Shown here: positions 2,073 through 64,000 of the stretch, in pieces
Layout: every line of letters starts with the position of its first letter
How positions within the stretch are numbered: position 1 is the first letter of the stretch
Assembly: GCF_964199755.1 (NCBI RefSeq)
Contig: NC_133903.1
Coordinates: 57,356,739-57,420,738, forward strand
DNA: 64,000 nt
DNA from: Larus michahellis
Lineage: Eukaryota > Chordata > Aves > Charadriiformes > Laridae
Direction of reading: 5' to 3'
Position numbers and translations under genes: made by a program
Notes under the pieces: generated by a model
The model's database searches: none
Told to the model about the DNA's origin: nothing
What the model saw: only the letters and a program-made list of their open reading frames with translations

Positions 2073-3711
2073 CTAAAAACACAGAAATTTTTGTATCTCA
2101 TAACATTAATGGATTTACATAACCTGTAAAATCAAATTACGCTACGTTAAGTAAAAGTATGGTCTGTTCTATGCAGAGAATTTTTCATACTTTTTTTTTA
2201 CTTCTAAAAGTATTATTTTCTCAATCACTAGCATATTTGAAACTGTATAGATTAAATAATGATTGACTATTAACAGGCCCTCAAAATTATTTCCATAAGC
2301 AATAGTTTTGTTACATCCAAAGGGACCTGAGTAAAATTGAGTGACCATTTACGAAAATACGGTCAGAAATTTTAAAAGCCAGTTTAAATGGGTTTGGTGG
2401 TATCTTTGCTATCCTTAGTCACCAAGGCAACGAACAATTTACAAATAGCCTATGAGAAAATGTTGTCCTATGCGCAAACAATAATGTGAGAGCCTGTCTG
2501 CATTTAACTCATGGATTTTGATGAACATTTGTAATAAAAAAATAGCTTTATCGTGAAATGTCTCCAGGTAGACAGTTTTGATGAAAGATTTATCATATGC
2601 CCACTGGCCTAGAAAATGGAAAATATTTTACAATAACTACTAGGCTTAGAGAATGGGTAGAAGCAGGAGAATGAGTTTTTCCCTATCTGCTTTCAAGCAA
2701 AGGACTTGGGTTCCCCAAAGACAAAGTAACCGAAATGATAATGAAAACATTTAGAAAGGACTCACACAAAGAATAAAGGGGAAAGTTTTCAAAAGCCCAA
2801 CGGGAAGCCTTGAATATAGAGGAAAATAAATTAGTATGACTTTATAGTAAACAAGAAATATTTCGTTCAGCTGTAACTAGGCAAGGTGAGAAAGGGCATG
2901 CTGGAAGAGCTTCTGGAGAAAACAGGCAAGGAAAGTACGGAAAGACGGGACAATATGGTCCAGAGGCAGAAGGAAACCCGGAAAAGCAAAAAACTACAGG
3001 CTTCCTTTCTGTCTACGCCTGCGGATTTCTTGTCCTGTTAAGTAAGCAGAGATGAAGCAGTAAATAAGATCACTCTCTGCAGGGCCAGAGCAAGGTCCCC
3101 AGCCCGTTTGCCGTCCTGCCGAAGGCAAGCGCAGGTGATGGCAGCAGAGCAGCCGCGGGGACCGACCCCGCTCAGGGCGAGTGCCCCGCACTGCCCGGCC
3201 GCTCACACCCCACACAGCAAGGCAAGGACCGCCTTTGGGTCTAGGAGAGGCCCCCAGCACTGGAACCCGGCGCAAGTTCTGCAAAACACCCCAGTTGGGA
3301 AGCTCAACTGGTTTAAGACGTAGAAAGAGTTCATATAGGGTCTCCTCTCTGTTCAACCACAGGATGCACCAGGAGGTCTCATAAACGTGCAGGACAAAAG
3401 AATTCGGAACTTAGCATGAGCTAAGTGGGCTACTTATACCCAGTTAAATGTTGTTCTTAATGCACAGATGTTTCATTCTGAAGAAGATACCGTGCAGTGC
3501 CACTACATCACATTAAAAACATTATGTAGCCACATTAAATAAACATTTTCAGTAACGGATCCCTGATCCTATTAGACTGAATACAGTTTGATACAATATT
3601 GTGTTAATGACTCTCTATCTAATCAAACAAGAGCCAGTTTGATTTCACAATTAGGAAAAACATCCTCACAACGGAACCTTTTAGAGAACAGCATGCTATG
3701 AGCTGGCTCAC
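2073..3711. other. Noncoding; no recognised gene
   Basis: The sequence is mostly AT-rich, with one GC-rich patch at about 3070-3300. Open frames across that patch on both strands have no recognisable domain and look like products of base composition. By position it corresponds to an intron of the LRRIQ3 relic. Confidence 0.5.
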
Positions 3712-3920
3712 CTCTCAGCAACAGGAGGGACGTCGGCAGAAGTCAATGGCAAAAACATTTCTATTTGTCAGGAAGTTTCCATCTCCCAACAATTTCCTCA
3801 TCAGAAATTACATAGTAACGCAGGGCTTTGAGGGAGAAAATGCTGTTAACAACAATGTGCCTACAGGCTATTTTCAGGCTCAGTGGAGTATCACACAAGG
3901 TGAGACCTATCAGATTAGGA
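3712..3920 (-). pseudogene. LRRIQ3: LRRIQ3 relic exon with premature stop
   Basis: On the - strand an acceptor (TATCTTTCAG) precedes position 3920 and a strong donor (GTGAGC) follows position 3712, outlining a 209-bp exon. From 3919 down to 3764 there are 52 open codons, beginning PNLIGLTLCDTPLSLK and including HIVVNSIFSLKALRYY and VISDEEIVGRWKLPDK. These match the end of the LRR domain of mammalian LRRIQ3 as I remember it (VNSIWPLKAL, VISDEEII, then WHLPE), and the location next to FPGT on the opposite strand is the syntenic one. An in-frame TAG follows at 3761-3763. One frame over, the text resumes with FAIDFC, resembling the mammalian FFNFC, so a frame disruption lies just after LPDK. I infer a broken exon. 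A lineage-specific shortened protein ending here is the alternative. Confidence 0.7.
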
Positions 3921-4717
3921 CTGAAAGATAATGAGTGCACATTAGCCATTTTTTCCAATTTCATTATCACAAAGATAAAGTAGACTTAATTCCTCCATGC
4001 CTTCCCAAAACACGAGGCCTGGAAGATGCCGTATCTGAAATAATGATGAAAATTCATCCTTCAGAAAAATGTAATTTATTAACACCTAAGATTACAAACC
4101 ATCATACACAGGCCAGCTCAATATTGGAAAAAAGAGAAGCAAATGTACAGAGTAGAGACGGGCTGAGCCTGGCCTTCGCGACTGCGGTATGATCGTGCCA
4201 ACCTTAGAGCTCACCACGGCAGCGCTGGAACACCAGGCACTCCCTGAGCCACCCACTGCAGCACCAGCTTTCTACACACCCGACAAAACCGGACTTCATG
4301 CAAATTAGACCGGAATTTTGGATTCGGTTGTTCTAAGCAGTGTTGCAGAATTGTTCTGTTTCTGGTTTGTTCTCATTTTATCTCTAGCACATAGAGAGCT
4401 CAGAAAGCCAAATGTGAAACTGCAGATTCAAGTTCAACTTTTGCTCCATAAAATGAAAGATTAAATAGTAGATTAACAGAGATTAAAACCGAGAGCTGGA
4501 AAACTATACCAAACATCTACGGAAAAACCTTCCAAGTATGTCTGGGGGTAGGGGAAGCAGCAGATGCCTTCGGGTTTAGTCATTTACAGAGAGACAGATG
4601 AAGCTCTTCAACGCACAGTAGGAACAATAAATCATTACAAGCTTACAATACGTAAACTGTCACATAGACTTTTCCTATTGTTTATTTATGTCATTTAAAA
4701 TATGTACAAATACTCAC
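3921..4717. other. Intron-like interval between LRRIQ3 relic exons
   Basis: No exon, repeat or regulatory site was recognised. It separates two LRRIQ3-like blocks on the - strand and is bounded by a donor-like GTGAGT at 4717-4712 and an acceptor ending at 3921. Confidence 0.45.
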
Positions 4718-4796
4718 AAGTTGTTCTACCGTTTTCTCTGTACTGCAAAGATTATTTTTTTCCAAGTACAGCCCTTAAGCCAAATCCATTTCAATA
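4718..4796 (-). pseudogene. LRRIQ3: Probable LRRIQ3 relic exon with a leucine-rich repeat
   Basis: On the - strand a strong acceptor (GGATTTTTCAG) precedes position 4796 and a strong donor (GTGAGT) follows 4718, giving a 79-bp exon. One frame contains LYLEKNNLCSTEKTVEQL, a leucine-rich-repeat pattern (LxLxxN). It corresponds to the LLYLHDNGF segment of mammalian LRRIQ3, which precedes the CPTL segment carried by the exon at 3920. The same frame has a TAA at 4777-4775, and the text before LYL is shorter than in mammals. The placement and order are right, but the similarity is short. Confidence 0.5.
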
Positions 4797-5136
4797 CTGA
4801 AAAATCCTGAATTCACACGTAACTAACTGTGTTATCACCATCATCCTTTCCACTCCTTTATAAAGGAAGGGAGACGTCAAACACCGAAACTCCTGGTATC
4901 AGGCCTCTCACCGAACAGCAGGGTAGGCATGGGAAAAACACTTGCCTTTTTATCACAAATGGCAAAAATTCTGTGAGCCCAAGATGTAACCACCTGTTCC
5001 TAGGAAAAAAATGAATATATTGAGTCAGAAGAGTTTCCTCCATGAAGAAACCGTATTTTATTCAAAATACATATAGTTCCTAAGGAATGCAATTACACAA
5101 GTCTAAAGACAAATCAACTTCATTTTTGCATCTTCA

Positions 5137-5317
5137 CAAAGTATTATTATTTACCTGATGTGCATGGAGCTCCAGCACACCACCAAATGAATCAATATTG
5201 ATAACGTAACTATTTGAGAGGATGCATATTTTAAGGGAAAAACCAGCACTGCAAATGCCCCACATTCTTTAGATACAGCCCATTTAACTGAACTATGACC
5301 AGGCCTTCGAACTTTTA
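5137..5317 (-). pseudogene. LRRIQ3: LRRIQ3 relic, N-terminal LRR exon with frameshift
   Basis: Reading the - strand, 5302-5249 encodes LVIVQLNGLYLKNVGHLQ, matching FVFVKFNGLHLKSMENLQ of mammalian LRRIQ3 as I remember it. After 10 bases (5248-5239) the frame changes by one, and 5238-5137 reads SLKICILSNSYVINID, then SFGGVLELHAHQ. These match SLRVCIFSNNFITDI and, with five residues missing, KLDLHGNQ. So one frameshift splits a single LRR block. The frame upstream of LVIV meets a TAA at 5317-5315, and the frame downstream meets a TGA at 5136-5134. The CAG|GTAAAT at about 5155-5147 could instead be a splice donor, in which case the TGA would be intronic. The frameshift is the firmest lesion. No start codon could be placed. 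Confidence 0.65.
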
Positions 5318-8229
5318 CAACAGACTTTGATCAATAGTTTGTAGGCATTCAAGTATCAGCTTTGTTGAAGCAGAAACAAGATGTTCAATATTCAGTTAAC
5401 TTCTTCATGATAAGCTCTCCTTTGATTCATCCCTCAGAGATCGGGAAAAGAATACAAAGACTATATAAAAGGCTACGTGTTCAGCTTCAGAAGGAGAATT
5501 TCAGATAACGAAAGACACTATCCGGGTATGTGTTATACTACTACTTATGAAATACTGTACAGCCACAGGGCAGAACAAACTCCAGTGGCACTAACTGCTT
5601 AAGTAAGAAATACTGTTGTGCTAACGACATATTGTATATGACATCTTGCCTCCCAAAGGGTCACAGAAAGTACTTTGCTAATGCCTAGCATGATTCCACA
5701 ACGCTCACACTGTATTTACTCAACAAAATGCTCGTACAGAAACACTGGGAGTTTTGCATTAATCCATCTCCTCTGCCTGAGGCGGGGATGGCAGCGTCGG
5801 GCTGTGCCTACGCCGCTGACACCACAGGCTGAAGGGTACGGGAGAGCGGCAGGGTCAGAGGGGAGCGGAGGCAGCTCTCAGCAACACACAACGTGTGTGT
5901 TCTCCGCTGTTCTGTAACCACAGTCTCCACAGAAAAACTCGACTTGGGCATTTATACTTCAGTTAAATACCAGCGTAAATAGTGCTGCTCTTAGAAAAGC
6001 TCTCCTGGGACTAAGCTCAACCAGTGAACACCTCTGCCTTCATCACGCAGACTAAACGGATCTCCTGGAGCCGTTTACTGGCTCTGCCACCCAGTCTGAT
6101 GAATGGCCAGCATTACTCCATGTACTGTTTGAGATTCTGGGGGCACAGAGCAATGCAGCATTGATGAAAATCTATCATTTCCTGGAATCACCTATCAGGC
6201 TAAGTGATTATAAATTAGTACTATTAAAAGCATGAATAACCATCCAACTGAAATAATTTTAAAAAAAATTATTACCATGAATAGTGGGATTCAATAATTA
6301 TTCTAGTCTTGGATTATCTTAGAGAGTGCAAACAGAAACTTTTGCATTAGGAATGACTAATGATGAAACGTTCAAAACAAAAATTCTGTTGAACTGCAGC
6401 AGTATTTCATCGCAAGCATTAGAGTCCCAATTATAGCTTCAAAGGCTTGGGCTCTTAAAAAGAAATCAGTATTATTGCCAGTAAACCATTAATTACTTTG
6501 TATCTCCAGTCATTCCCTAAATGACTTGTAAATTAGCATGTATTTTTAATCGCACTGTGAAAACTGTGTCACTATTGAACTAAACATGTATTATAAAAGA
6601 CATCTCTTAAACTGTATTTATTATATACATCTTAAGACACGCAAGTCAGAGATAGATTAAGAAGAGCACAATTAATAAAGGGCAATCTACTCTAACATGA
6701 TAAAAAGATTTCCCAACTTCAATTCCTTTCTTTGCATTTCAGAAAGCCAGCAATTCTCCCTTGGCAAATAAACTACTAATAAGGAATGGGAGACAGGAAA
6801 ACTTGCTGGTTAGTATGTGAGGGTTCCCAGCTTTGTTGAGAATCACTCATTCTTCTGACTTAAAATAGAAAATGTTTCCTTAATGTCTAGAGCACTTCTG
6901 AATGTAATCGGGGTGATGCAGTTGCTAATTGGGTTCATGAAAACACAGTAATTGACAGGGTTCCTCACTAACGCTGCGTTAGCCAGAAGGTATGAAAGGG
7001 GAAAACAGTATTAAAAAACCCTGTAGGCAGCAGTGAATCTTCACCTGTTGTAACTGAACATCACACCCGTAACGCTGGACTTGGGATCCAGCACCTTGTG
7101 CTCATTGGGGTCAACACAGCTGTTGTCAACAACGAAAACCCAATGCCAAAGAGTAAAAGCACAGTTTCAAGAAAATAGGCTGTGTTCCTTATTAGAGTAA
7201 GTTGAGAACATACGGAAGGATCAAACAGATCTTTGCGGTGTACATTACTCTGATTAAGGCTGTTATCACACGCATCACAGAGAAGTCTCAAACTGATAAA
7301 GCAGCAGTGAAGTATTCATCTTTTTTTCTTTTATCTTCTCTGTCAGCGGTTTACAATCATGAAAAACTATGGATTTTTTGTAACTTTTTAACTTCCCAAA
7401 TTCTTTTTTTCAGTAGCTCCTACAGTGCTTTTACAGCCACTTGTTATTGTAATATTTATGCATAATGAGACCTTATCAAGACAAACCCTCCTTTCATTTT
7501 GATCTGTTTGTATTTGGTATCTGTAGTCTCAGCAGACTCTAAGTTCAGTCAGACAGATGAAGTCCCCAGATCAAAAATCACAATACCCAGGGCAAAGAGC
7601 TGCCGTGGGAAAACCTTTCAGCGGCGTGAATGTGCCAGCAGCTATCAGATAACCACACACACCACGGGAGCCGGCAGCCGGTCCCTGCAGGATCAGTTCA
7701 TCGGACCCAAACCCGCGCAGCAGGCGTGCGCCCCCACAGCCGGGGAGCCCGGCACACGCAAGCCCAGCAGGAACGGCTTCAGCACAGTAGTTCATCTGCA
7801 ATTAGGATTCCATCCCTAATTAGATTACTACACTAGCAATCTAACTCACGCCGCTCCCTCCCGTGACTGTCAGGAGCTGTAACCCCGGCCTCACACCGTG
7901 GCCTGTCTCCACACACAGGCCCCGGCCTGGGCAGACCCGGCCCCGCGGACCCCAAGCTCAACACCAGAACCGCCATCCCGGCAGAGACGTGTCTCCAAAT
8001 CTGGGCCCATAGGCGGGAACGTGTCCTCTACAAGCTGCGTAACTAAAGGGAATGGGAAAGGAACTTCTTTTCCTGAAAGCCCTCGGATGCATTCGACACC
8101 CCAAGGCCGCAGCAGGCCATGTGCGTGGAGCCAGAGAGGGGGGCCAGCAGGGCCCTGTGCCTTCCTTCCGAACAAAACCCACTTGCACCATCCTTAGACC
8201 CAAGAACTTAGTGAACCAGAATTATTAAA
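5318..8229. other. Noncoding interval between LRRIQ3 relics and FPGT CpG island
   Basis: It is AT-rich to about 7500 and then becomes progressively GC-rich toward the FPGT island. In mammals this position corresponds to the 5' part of LRRIQ3 (untranslated exon and first intron). I found no convincing exon on either strand. Open frames around 7570-8200 lack any recognisable domain. Confidence 0.5.
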
Positions 8230-8577
8230 TAAAAAAAGTAAATATAAAAAGAGCGGCGGGCGGGCGAGAGCAGCAGCACGGCACACGGGCCTGTGCCCGC
8301 CAGACGCGGCGAGGCCCGACCGCACGGGGAGGGGGGGGCGGCAGCGGCACCGCCCGCGCTCCGTGCTTCGACGGGCGGCCGCGGGGCCGCTCCCCGGGCT
8401 CGCACTCGCCGGCCCGAGGCCAGTCTCCCGGCCACCCCAGGCGGCAGCCCCCCCCTTCCCCACCCCCTCCGCCCAGCCCAGCTCAGCTCTGCCCCGGGCG
8501 CGACCGAGGGCGGCGCTCCGCGACGGCGCCGCGGGGCCGACCCGAGCACCGGGAACCGGCAGGGCCTGAGGCGGCCC

Positions 8578-8646
8578 CCGCCCCGCCCCGGCTCCCCGCC
8601 CGGCGCTTCCGGGTCGGGCGCGGCGGGTGACGGCGGCGGCGCGGCC
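8578..8646 (+). promoter_or_regulatory. FPGT proximal promoter / 5' UTR with GC boxes and ETS site
   Basis: Just upstream of the FPGT ATG are tandem GC boxes (8578-8600), a CTTCCGG ETS-family core at 8606-8612, and a TGACG half-site at 8628-8632. These combinations are typical at start sites of housekeeping genes. The transcription start itself cannot be fixed from sequence. A TATA-like TATAAAAA at 8243-8250 is about 400 bp from the ATG and is probably not the main element. Confidence 0.5.
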
Positions 8647-8725
8647 ATGCCGGCGGCGGGCGAGCGGAGCGCGGCGCGGCGGGAGGCTACGGGGCGGCGG
8701 CTGGCGCGGTTCGCGGCGCTCAGAG
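8647..8725 (+). CDS. FPGT: FPGT coding exon 1
   Basis: Encodes residues 1-26 ([20 protein letters not shown]...) plus one base. The basic, alanine-rich N-terminus aligns with the REAT..L.RF..LRG segment of mammalian FPGT. The donor is AGAG|GTGGGG. Intron 1 is only 127 bp (8726-8852). Confidence 0.9.
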
Positions 8726-11700
8726 GTGGGGCGGGCAGGGGGCGGTGGGGCCCGGTCTGGGAGAGCCGCGCCGCGGGGGCCCGGCTGGGCGAGCGCGCCC
8801 TGCCCGGCCCCGGGCCGCCCGTCCCCTGACGCGGCCCCCGCTGTGCCCGCAGGGAAGGCCGCCGGGCCCGGCCAGTTCTGGGACGTGGTGGCGGTGACGG
8901 CCGCGGACGCGGAGCAGGCGCGCGCCTACCGGCGGCAGCTGGCGGAGAAGCTGCGCGGGAGGGAGCTGCCGCTGGGCGCCCGGTACCATGTCTTCGTGGA
9001 TCCGCCGGGACCCAAAATCGGTGCGCACCCGTCCGCGCCGGCTCGACCCGGGGGGCGCCGCGCCCGGGCTGGGCTCTCCGGCCTCGACTCCGGCTCCTGC
9101 GGGGGGCCGGGCCCGGTGCGGGCCTGTGCAGCGGGAGGGGCCGCGGGAGGCGGCAGCGCGCCCGCACGTGTGCGGGGCAAGCGTCGAGCCGCCACCGCGC
9201 CCCGACACCCACGGCCCGCGGCCAGAACCGGGGAACCGGCTCGCTCGATGCAGCATTAATGCGCTTCCCCATCACCCGCCGCAGCACCAATCCCAGTGCG
9301 CTCGGCGTGTCGGTGCAGGTAGTGTGGGTGCACTTCCCAGCAGACACTAACGTATTTTTTCTTTAGGCAATGGTGGATCAACACTTCATGTTCTTCGATG
9401 CCTGGAAGATCTGTATGGTGATAAATGGACTTCTTTTATTGTGCTGCTAATTCACTCTGGTAATGCTGGTTTACGTTTCACACACTAAAATTGTACGCCC
9501 TCCCCCCCCCCCTTTTTTTTTAAAATAATATGATGGCAGGGAAGGAGTCAGAGTTGTAAAATACAGTTCCCTCGGAAAAGTAATCCCAAACATATCTGAT
9601 CTGATCATTTGAATTGAGATTGATCCTTAGGAGATACTACTGTCACTTAAGCACTTAAGTCGTTCGATCAAACAGTGGAGAAAGAAGTGTAATTCAGAGT
9701 ATCTGAATTAAGCTCCTGCCTTGAAATTCCCATTTGAGGAGCAGCCCCCTCTGTAGGGGACCTGGGGCCCCTCCTGACTACAGGCAGACTGGATGCCTGC
9801 CACCTTACCCCGTTGGTTAGGGCTCTGCCAAAAGGGGCATCGGTTTTGGAGGGGAGAAAGTAACTCACCCAACGAAAACACTGCTTAGTTGACTCATCTG
9901 TGACTTAAAATTCCAGGCGGGGGTCCTACTTGTTTTTTCAAGTGAAAAGCAGGCATCATTTGCTTTCTTCACGTTAGTTACAGACAAGTGGTCCATTTTC
10001 CATCTCTGAAGCAAACTAAAGGCAATGAAATTAAACACAATTTTAATATAAGCTATTTAAGGCATGCTAAATTTTGGACATAAGGTCAGATCTGCTTTGA
10101 GAAATGTGTTAAGAAGAAGGATTGATGATCTTTTTCCATCTGCCGTTTTTTGAGGAGTACTTGGTATATGACCAAGTTGGGGGGATTATACCTTTGTGTA
10201 GATGCAAAAGAGCTGTATAGGTTTAGTTTTTACTTATATGCAGTGTCTCTGTATAATTAAAAATGTCTTTTTCTTCAAGGTGGTTACAGTCAACGTTTAC
10301 CAAACGCAAGTGCCCTGGGAAAGATTTTCACAGCTTTGCCTTTTGGCGATCCCGTTTACCAGATGTTGGACCTGAAGCTCGCCATGTACATTGATTTCCC
10401 CAGTCACATGAAGCCAGGAATTCTCGTTACGTGTTCAGATGATCTAGAACTGTACAGCACCGGACTTACAGAAACCATCACATTTGATAAGCCTGGATTT
10501 ACCGCGTTAGCTCACCCTTCGGATTTGACAGTTGGGACCACTCATGGAGTGTTTGTTCTGGATCCATCCAGCATTTCGGGAAAAGGAGGACTTGAATACA
10601 CGTCTTGCCATCATTTCCTGCACAAGCCTGATGTCGAGACGATGCGCCAGTGTGGCGCGGTATGCGTAAGGGGGAATTCTTCTCAGCTAAGTTCCTCTGG
10701 AGACCACAGCGACTCAGAAATGGACTCGGAGTGTGTGTATACAGACAGTATATTTTACATGGATCATAGCATTGCAAAACAATTACTGATGTTTTATAAG
10801 CAGATAGGCACTCTTTCCTGTGAAATAGATGCATACGGTGACTTCCTCCAGGCCCTGGGACCTGGAGCCACTCAAGATTACACAAAAAACACAAGTAACG
10901 TCACAAAAGAGGAATCCCAGTTAGTAGAAGTACGGCAGAAGCTATACTCCCTTCTGAAAGGAACTGCACTTAATGTTATAGTCTTAAACAACTCCAAGTT
11001 CTATCACATTGGAACAACGCAAGAGTATTTGTTTCATTTTACATCTGATAGCAAACTGAAATTTGAGCTTGACTTACTGCCTGTGGCTTTCAGCAGCTTT
11101 TCTGAGAAAGCTGAGAGCTTGGATCAGTCAGCAAGTGTCATTCAAAGCATACTCGAGCCTGGGTGTTCCGTAGGGCCTGGGTCCGTCATTGAATACTCTA
11201 GAATCGGACCTGAAGTCTCAGTAGGGAAGAAGAGCATTATTAGTGGATCGCACATAAATGTGAAAGTAGACATACCTTCAGATTGTTTTCTAAGTTCATT
11301 AAGTATAAAAATTAACGGTCAAGTAAAGTACATAAGTATGGTGTTCAGTGTAGAAGATGACTTGAAGCGGAGTGTGAAATTGTTGTCAGAGATACACTCG
11401 CTCCAGTTTTTTGGAGTCAGCTTGCTGGAATGCTTGGAGCTCTGGGGTGTGAAGGTTTCGGACCAGCTCTTCTCCGGTGAGAACACGCGCCTGGGGCTGT
11501 GGACTGCCAGGATCTTTCCTGTTTGTTCTACCTTAAGTGAATCAGTTAGGATGTCGTTAAAAATGTTAAACTCTGTGCGGCGCATGTCAGCTTTTAAATT
11601 GCATGGCTTTAAGCTCTTGTCTGTTGAAGAAATGCTCACCTACAAGGATGTAGAAGACATGTTGAAGTTTAGGAAGCAAATTTATGATGAAATCTGTCTA

Positions 11701-11730
11701 CAAAGACAAAAAGAGAAGTCTGATTTGTAG
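8647..11730 (+). CDS. FPGT: Fucose-1-phosphate guanylyltransferase (four coding exons)
   Basis: FPGT catalyses fucose-1-phosphate + GTP to GDP-fucose + PPi in the cytosol, the second step of the fucose salvage pathway after fucokinase. Coding exons are 8647-8725, 8853-9020, 9367-9459 and 10280-11730, all with GT-AG junctions and all introns in phase 1, giving 596 codons plus TAG. The length fits the mammalian protein (about 594-607 residues). Landmarks matching the family are YHVFVDP and GPKIGNGGSTL (end of exon 2 into exon 3), the glycine-rich nucleotide-binding loop [17 protein letters not shown] (about residues 112-128), [20 protein letters not shown] and [18 protein letters not shown] left-handed beta-helix-like region follows from about residue 405 ([19 protein letters not shown]). 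The start ATG in GCGGCCATGC lies in the CpG island and gives the expected N-terminus. The gene looks intact. Confidence 0.97.
8853..9020 (+). CDS. FPGT: FPGT coding exon 2
   Basis: Encodes residues 27-82, including [12 protein letters not shown] and [16 protein letters not shown]. The acceptor is CCCGCAG and the donor ATCG|GTGCGC. It enters and leaves in phase 1. Intron 2 (9021-9366) is 346 bp and GC-rich in its first half. Confidence 0.95.
9367..9459 (+). CDS. FPGT: FPGT coding exon 3
   Basis: Encodes residues 83-113, reading [20 protein letters not shown] and ending FIVLLIHS, plus one base of the next glycine. The acceptor is TTTCTTTAG and the donor CTCTG|GTAATG. The phase-1 end is the same as that of TNNI3K exon 1, so this exon can also splice in frame to TNNI3K exon 2 at 23924. 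The 820-bp intron 3 (9460-10279) contains a homopolymeric C then T run near 9503-9522 and no recognised repeat. Confidence 0.95.
10280..11730 (+). CDS. FPGT: FPGT coding exon 4 (terminal, most of protein)
   Basis: This 1451-bp exon encodes residues 114-596 and stops at TAG 11728-11730. It starts inside the nucleotide-binding loop ([15 protein letters not shown]) and contains the remainder of the catalytic region and the C-terminal beta-helix-like segment. A short Ser/Asp/Glu-rich stretch ([14 protein letters not shown], around residues 251-264) is a variable loop in the family. No disruption is visible. Confidence 0.97.
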
Positions 11731-19830: not shown

Positions 19831-20419
19831 TTTTCCCTCCTCTCCTCCCTGCAGGCCATGCCACATCAGCTGAGGGAGCGGTTCGGAGGCGCTGCCCCAG
19901 ACGCGTGGGGCTGGCACAGCCCCTCACCAGACAACAACCCCGGGGCTTCCCTCAGAGACAGTGGGAGCCCAGACAGAAAAGGGGGGCTCCCTGGGCCCAG
20001 GAGCTATCAAGGGTCTGTTTCAGGCCATCCTGTGATTCTTACCTAAACTGACTAACTTCCAGTTTGGATTGTACAGGGCATCCAAGCCCCAAAGTGACAG
20101 CAGGCTGAAGCCAAGCCCTTCTGAAGTCCTAACCTGCACAGAGCAGCTAAGTCACCACCATGACGAGTCCCCCACCTTGGCTGGCGTACTCAAGGCAGTG
20201 CTGAGGGCTACCAGGCGGTGGGGGGAGGCGGCCGGAGGCTGGCTGGTGCAAGGGGGAGGCACAGCACTGTTGCAGGTCCAGCCGTTCTGGGTGATGGGCG
20301 CCAGCACAGCTTCCTTGCTGCTCTGCTGCCATGCAGCTGGCGCAGGAGGCGTGGATGCAGGGCTGCATACACGTGCGCGGTGGAGAGGAGAAGGCCGAGT
20401 CTCAGACGCCTGAGAACCG

Positions 20420-21022
20420 ATTCCTTGGCCTGTACCAGCACTAGTGTGGCCAGCAGGACGGGGGCAGTGACCGTCCCCCTGTACTGGGCACTGGCAAGGC
20501 CCCACCTCGAGGCCTGTGTCCAGTTTTGGGCCCCTCGCTCCAGGAAAGACATTGAGGGGCTGGAGCGTGTCCAGAGAAGGGCGACGGAGCTGGTGAGGGG
20601 TCTGGAGCACAAGCCTCGTGAGGAGCGGCTGAGGGAGCTGGGGGTGTTCAGCCTGGAGAAGAGGAGGCTGAGGGGAGACCTTCTCGCTCTCTGCAGCTCC
20701 CTGAAAGGAGGGGGCAGCCAGGGGGGGTCGGGCTCTTCTCCCAAGGAACAGGCCACGGGACAGGGGAAACGGCCTCAAGTTGTGCCAGGGGAGGTTTAGG
20801 ATGGATATTAGGAGAAATTTCTTCATGGAAAAGGTTGTCAAGCCTTGGCCCAGGCTGCCCAGGGCAGTGGTGGAGTCGCCATCCCTGGAGGGATTGAAAA
20901 GCCGGGCAGACGTGGTGCTGAGGGACATGGGCTGGTGGGGGTTTGGGCAGCGTTAGGCGAACAGCTGGACTTGATGATCTGAAAGGTCCCTTCCATCCTA
21001 GACGATTCTATGATTCTATGAT
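20420..21022 (+). mobile_element. CR1 LINE fragment, sense
   Basis: It shows CR1 3'-region blocks in order: GTGTGGCCAGCAGGACGG, GGCCCCACCTCGAGGCCTGT, GTGTCCAGAGAAGGGCGACG, GAGGCTGAGGGGAGACCTT, GATGGATATTAGGAGAAATT, CAGGCTGCCCAGGGCAGTGG, GACTTGATGATCTGAAAGG, and the tail GATTCTATGATTCTATGA at the end. The 5' end is truncated. The last 320 bp closely resemble the CR1 at 62757-63081, so both belong to the same or a closely related subfamily. Confidence 0.95.

Positions 21023-23255: not shown

Positions 23256-64000
<40,745 letters not shown>

Follow-up and report, generated by a model that had tools for sequence, protein, structure and literature searches.

The loss in birds of genes connected with cilia and sperm has several described precedents. 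For STK33, every one of the 28 neognaths analysed is reported to carry a unitary pseudogene, three palaeognaths being compared, and the loss was put at about 100 million years (PMC4509753); WDR93 and CFAP46 have been lost in landfowl, geese and other birds (PMC10445033). LRRIQ3 itself bears the label 'Class A (Cilia)' in one protein-level table (PMC3338421), and it is one of 28 candidates for which CilioGenics points to earlier experimental validation (PMC11317154). In cattle and roe deer the gene order is given as TNNI3K-FPGT-LRRIQ3 (PMC3751663). A loss of LRRIQ3 in birds was not found in the PubMed Central papers searched; among them, the titles of those that name both LRRIQ3 and chicken point to sheep, pigs, dogs and mammalian B chromosomes, and the main text of PMC10445033 contains no mention of 'LRRIQ'.

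The window analysed here (the whole stretch of 64,000 nucleotides) corresponds to C12:57356739-57420738 of the Larus michahellis genome, which comprises 1,405,500,149 bases in 616 contigs. Among PDB chains, a haemoglobin beta exon of this genome has its best matches in a group of bird haemoglobins, in keeping with a bird-like genome. The single LRRIQ3 of this genome is read here as broken remains that lie at the ancestral place and keep at least one ancestral intron -- that is, as a unitary pseudogene -- with a probability that we put at roughly 0.87, judging from this one genome; this bird has probably lost LRRIQ3. A sequence-only reading had proposed just such a decayed unitary pseudogene beside an intact FPGT, and homology, order, synteny, the lesions and the failure to find a second copy all support it.

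The likeness to STK33, a gene suspected to act in spermatogenesis, is that of a unitary pseudogene whose remaining exons carry indels and stops and which has lost other exons altogether; for STK33, however, many birds have been compared and the loss has been dated, whereas LRRIQ3 is known here from one genome and is undated (PMC4509753). With WDR93 and CFAP46 it shares being a ciliary gene lost in a bird lineage by gene-disrupting changes and deletion, but those two are components of the central apparatus C1d and were lost several times independently, the loss of WDR93 being backed by RNA evidence as well (PMC10445033). Mammalian LRRIQ3 has the same neighbours (PMC3751663), and about half of the residues of the second exon relic described below (exon B) are identical to the human protein; the latter is listed as ciliary (PMC3338421), while all the coding pieces detected here are disrupted. 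The present genome also has, on the minus strand at C4:81057850-81070050, four STK33 exon-like pieces in order, two of them clean, one with a one-base frame change in a run of A and one lacking a clear acceptor; one piece is identical to a provisional human STK33 sequence at 22 of 26 residues.

The reference for all LRRIQ3 alignments and identities was a provisional sequence of the human LRRIQ3 protein. The minus strand of the window carries LVIVQLNGLYLKNVGHLQ, CILSNSYVINI, HIVVNSIFSLKAL and VISDEEIVGRWKLPDK in the order expected for LRRIQ3, as had been claimed from the sequence; a further block on that list, LYLEKNN, is a chance likeness (see below). The tblastn comparison with a mammalian LRRIQ3 that had been suggested for this strand gives two matches to the human protein, at 4037-3951 (52% of 29 residues) and 3952-3746 (52% of 69), with a joint E of 7.6e-20 in the window. 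They belong to exon relic B, which lies at 3712-4034 on the minus strand (IRHLPGLVFWEGMEELSLLYLCDNEIGK ... NLIGLTLCDTPLSLKIACRHIVVNSIFSLKALRYYVISDEEIVGRWKLPDK) and to which human residues 84-179 can be aligned. In an alignment that tolerates frame changes, 4037-3746 reaches a score of 236 with 50/97 residues identical, as against at most 43 in 100 single-base shuffles, and the whole-genome match of this exon has an E of 7.4e-14. Its end at 3712 was set by the donor consensus, the last 30-odd bases (3745-3712) being without homology. Exon relic A, at 5155-5305 on the same strand (LVIVQLNGLYLKNVGHLQ ... SLKICILSNSYVINID ... LELHAHQ), corresponds to human residues ~31-83. Taken alone it is weak by tblastn in the window (E 0.29 for 5238-5146 and 1.9 for 5299-5213); the frame-tolerant alignment gives 5299-5137 a score of 83, with 100 single-base shuffles reaching at most 41. 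Its 5' limit, given here as 5305, is tentative.

The two relics are 1.1 kb apart, with splice consensus at both ends of the intron between them: an intact GT donor (CATCAG/GTAAAT) at 5153-5154, 3' of exon A, and an intact TTTCAG acceptor at 4035-4040, 5' of exon B, both on the minus strand. In terms of the human protein, this intron falls between Q83 and I84 and splits no codon. A further intact GT donor (GAGAG/GTGAGC, minus strand) follows exon B at 3710-3711. By alignment, exons A and B thus hold the N-terminal leucine-rich repeats (LRR) of LRRIQ3; a Pfam search with three short LRRIQ3 pieces returned no LRR family at E up to 1, only one sub-threshold chance match.

Several disabling lesions have been identified in the two exons, all on the minus strand: two frame changes, two stops (one past the aligned part) and one likely five-codon gap. 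In exon A a one-base change of reading frame lies at or near a TTTTT run at 5238-5242, the break falling between 5248 and 5238; the frame-tolerant alignment thus confirms that the frameshift claimed earlier at this point is present in the sequence. Exon A also seems likely, from its alignment, to lack five codons relative to human LRRIQ3, with the junction at 5175-5176. The gap, which had been proposed before as a five-residue deletion, appears in tblastn and in the alignment ended at the donor (score 82, 20/49 identical), though it is not certain, as a gap-free alternative running on into the intron scores 83 (18/54 identical), one point above the gapped version. In exon B there is a one-base frame change in an AAAAAA run at 3949-3954, located by the frame-tolerant alignment, an in-frame TAG at 3761-3763 opposite human F174, and a second in-frame stop, TGA, at 3743-3745, just beyond the well-aligned part. 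The whole-genome protein search independently counts one TGA and one TAG within its match to exon B. The sequence-only reading had missed the frame change in the run of A (3954-3949), the second stop (TGA, 3745-3743), the LYLCDN block -- the true counterpart block of this part of the LRR region, which sits in exon relic B -- and the C-terminal relic outside the window.

That reading had listed three stops, of which the TAG at 3763-3761 is real. The TAA at 5317-5315 shares the reading frame of the first part of exon A, but homology can be detected only downstream of it; this TAA is not placeable in an exon and has therefore been left out of the lesion count. The LYLEKNN block at ~4770 has been rejected: the matching human segment scores only 21 within 4850-4650, a value equalled or exceeded by 104 of 300 random 200-bp pieces (these probably include the true exon, hence the control maximum of 79), while the same segment scores 79 at 4037-3951. 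LYLEKNN being a chance likeness, the third of the listed stops, at 4775-4777, is assigned to the intron.

The downstream long coding region had not been found in that reading. The IQ part and residues 331-475 were not detected here either, but a relic of the C-terminal coil lies beyond the window edge. A further 200 kb downstream of that edge were searched, making 264 kb in all for tblastn. The third relic, matching residues 470-587 of the LRRIQ3 coil, was found at C12:57347867-57347509 (window coordinates -8871 to -9229), on the same strand and 12.6 kb downstream. By tblastn it has an E of only 0.061 in the 264 kb. In the frame-tolerant alignment it scores 68, with 29/115 residues identical, and none of 56 real 4-kb minus-strand pieces exceeds 47 (their mean is 39.2 with an s.d. 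of 3.6; of the 60 draws, four that fell near the locus were skipped); the reversed LRRIQ3 protein scores 32 on the relic's own piece. Under more permissive penalties its score is 84, while none of 113 one-kb control pieces exceeds 57 (seven of 120 draws skipped). It also ranks first among 64 one-kb tiles that cover both strands from -12999 to about 3500, the runner-up scoring 44. It contains five in-frame stops and one frame change. Since the reference protein had been fixed before this C-terminal stretch was compared, its match also supports the provisional LRRIQ3 sequence.

The remaining parts of the protein gave no detectable trace in the regions searched. The IQ motif (residues 206-240) reaches at best 32 between 3711 and -8800, where 18 controls reach 37, and its exon is taken as deleted or decayed. 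Residues 1-32, the N-terminal exon, score at best 25 upstream (40 controls reach 33), residues 185-330 score 40 (45 in 14 controls) and residues 331-475 score 38 (47 in 13 controls); scored without controls, residues 171-215 give a best value of 19 just after the TAG, at 3666-3655, and residues 561-624 give 29. A looser alignment of residues 223-587, with further frame changes and a score of 95, was set aside for want of a matching control.

The neighbouring genes are intact, in agreement with the earlier claim. FPGT extends on the plus strand from its start codon at 8647 to 11730, with protein matches at 8852-9022, 9363-9485 and 10279-11703; it carries the Pfam fucose pyrophosphorylase domain (E 1.2e-148) and is 65% identical to a likewise provisional human FPGT sequence over 476 residues. 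TNNI3K follows at 23256-60369 on the same strand, its exons matching the human protein from residue 1 to 590. The matched exon parts of these two control genes, 20 pieces in all, are open over about 3470 coding bases. A minisatellite of 1.7 kb at 26963-28659, built of units of ~25, 53 and 78 bases with about 64 short copies, lies within TNNI3K, in the intron bounded by the matches that end at 24030 and begin at 31063; its six frames are all open, each for more than 620 codons. Two similar stretches with related peptides, at 20152-20952 and 62646-63153, are probably copies of an interspersed repeat. The relics adjoin FPGT and TNNI3K in the order known from cattle and roe deer, which marks this as the ancestral place, and the intron with its splice consensus shows that they are not a processed copy. 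At the larger scale, the 58.4-Mb contig C12 also holds globin matches at 16.41-16.42 Mb (42-49% to haemoglobin beta, taken as alpha-like), FPGT and TNNI3K being at 57.36 Mb. The alpha globins of chicken are, we take it, on chromosome 14 and TNNI3K on chromosome 8; their presence on one contig here may therefore reflect a fusion or an assembly join.

Protein and DNA searches detected no other LRRIQ3-like place in the 1.41-Gb assembly. The whole-genome protein search (1.4055 Gb), taken as far as E 10, listed seven matches but only one clear place, C12:57360472-57360696, which is the exon B match given above. The next best, an open frame of 307 aa on contig C2 (E 0.006), aligns only to LRR residues 36-121 and is most likely another LRR gene. 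As exon A and the C-terminal relic are both missing from its matches, decayed copies could escape this search, though an intact one hardly could. As DNA, window positions 4700-5400 and 3700-4060 and the C-terminal relic each match themselves alone in their own genome. No related sequences were found in viral contigs, and one 36% match in a bacterial bin among prokaryote contigs was taken as a generic LRR protein.

Several observations speak against a pseudogene: both exon frame changes fall in homopolymers, where sequencing errors gather, three splice sites are intact, the C-terminal relic is weak by tblastn and in identity, and 3745-3712 has no homology. A working gene that only looks broken through errors of sequencing or assembly is nevertheless most improbable. 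The two frame changes do lie in homopolymers of 5 and 6 bases, and two of the three runs of at least 5 bases within the 487 bases taken for LRRIQ3 exons are broken, but none of the eight such runs in about 3470 FPGT and TNNI3K coding bases is (Fisher p 0.055). Moreover, in-frame stops are not produced by homopolymer errors, the C-terminal relic adds five of them, and several parts of LRRIQ3 have left no trace. It is very unlikely, too, that a shortened, LRR-only LRRIQ3 is still made, with the TAG at 3763-3761 as its natural end. Exon B would suit such a product, being open for 63 codons before the TAG, 52% identical to human LRRIQ3 in its match and flanked by an intact donor and acceptor, and the C-terminal half looks more decayed than the LRR half; yet frame changes precede the TAG in both exons, leaving no frame across A and B, and no start exon was found for it.

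LRR and LRR-cap motifs are common to many proteins -- in the PDB the reference LRRIQ3 sequence matches LRRC23, DRC3 and others, and of its 124 matches the best 60 include no chain under the name LRRIQ3 -- and the pieces might be ascribed to another leucine-rich-repeat gene or to a processed copy. This is extremely improbable, as exon B finds no LRR protein in the PDB up to E 10 but is 52% identical to LRRIQ3, the intron between A and B has its splice sites, LRRIQ3 is the gene expected beside FPGT, and the C-terminal relic matches the LRRIQ3 coil. There is similarly only the faintest chance that LRRIQ3 is intact elsewhere, translocated or on an unassembled microchromosome, and that the relics are a copy left behind. 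Bird assemblies miss GC-rich genes, and the whole-genome search scores best candidates only (here 10 of 10); against this stand the lack of an intact copy in 1.4055 Gb, the ancestral synteny and the good assembly of the neighbours. The unitary pseudogene is thus the preferred reading.

For the age of this pseudogene, decay was simulated with an assumed indel-to-substitution ratio of 0.12, the five-codon gap being counted as an indel. The lesions of the LRR exons fit about 0.05-0.10 substitutions per site; the stops alone would permit a higher divergence, and a lower indel ratio would raise the estimate. The identity of exon B (50/97) caps the divergence near 0.2 unless the working gene was more than 77% identical to human, and the cap is a soft one since TNNI3K exceeds 77% in most of its matched pieces. 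The coil relic looks older than the LRR relics, although this is a hint only: it has 5 stops in 115 codons, the LRR exons 2 in 149 (Fisher p 0.25), and in simulated neutral decay only 0.5% of runs produce at least five stops in 115 codons when 0.10 substitutions per site are assumed, and 3.0% when the value is 0.20. A loss in two steps, in which the IQ and coil half died first while the LRR half persisted for some time as a short protein and then broke, is accordingly an unlikely though conceivable course; against it, the coil alignment may include misaligned stretches.

As for the course of events, LRRIQ3, a cilia protein, would have become dispensable in this lineage under relaxed constraint; one truncating mutation would then have been fixed, and the rest of the gene would have decayed neutrally. 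The promoter side may have fared differently. A CpG island at 8250-9249 (GC 0.81-0.86, CpG o/e 0.82-1.12) covers the FPGT start. Human LRRIQ3 and FPGT presumably start head to head, within about 50 bases of each other, and from these human gene positions the island is a candidate promoter common to both genes. Serving FPGT as well, it may stay open, kept under selection for FPGT, and leftover non-coding transcription towards the dead LRRIQ3 is therefore possible.

The probable loss of LRRIQ3 is a new case, while the loss in birds of ciliary and sperm genes as such is already known from STK33, WDR93 and CFAP46; LRRIQ3 would join these three as a sign of birds shedding genes of this kind. LRRIQ3 is little studied, and a bird lacking it amounts to a natural knockout. 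If the cilia and sperm of this lineage work, LRRIQ3 must be dispensable or replaceable there, and a comparison of lineages with and without it would reveal its role.
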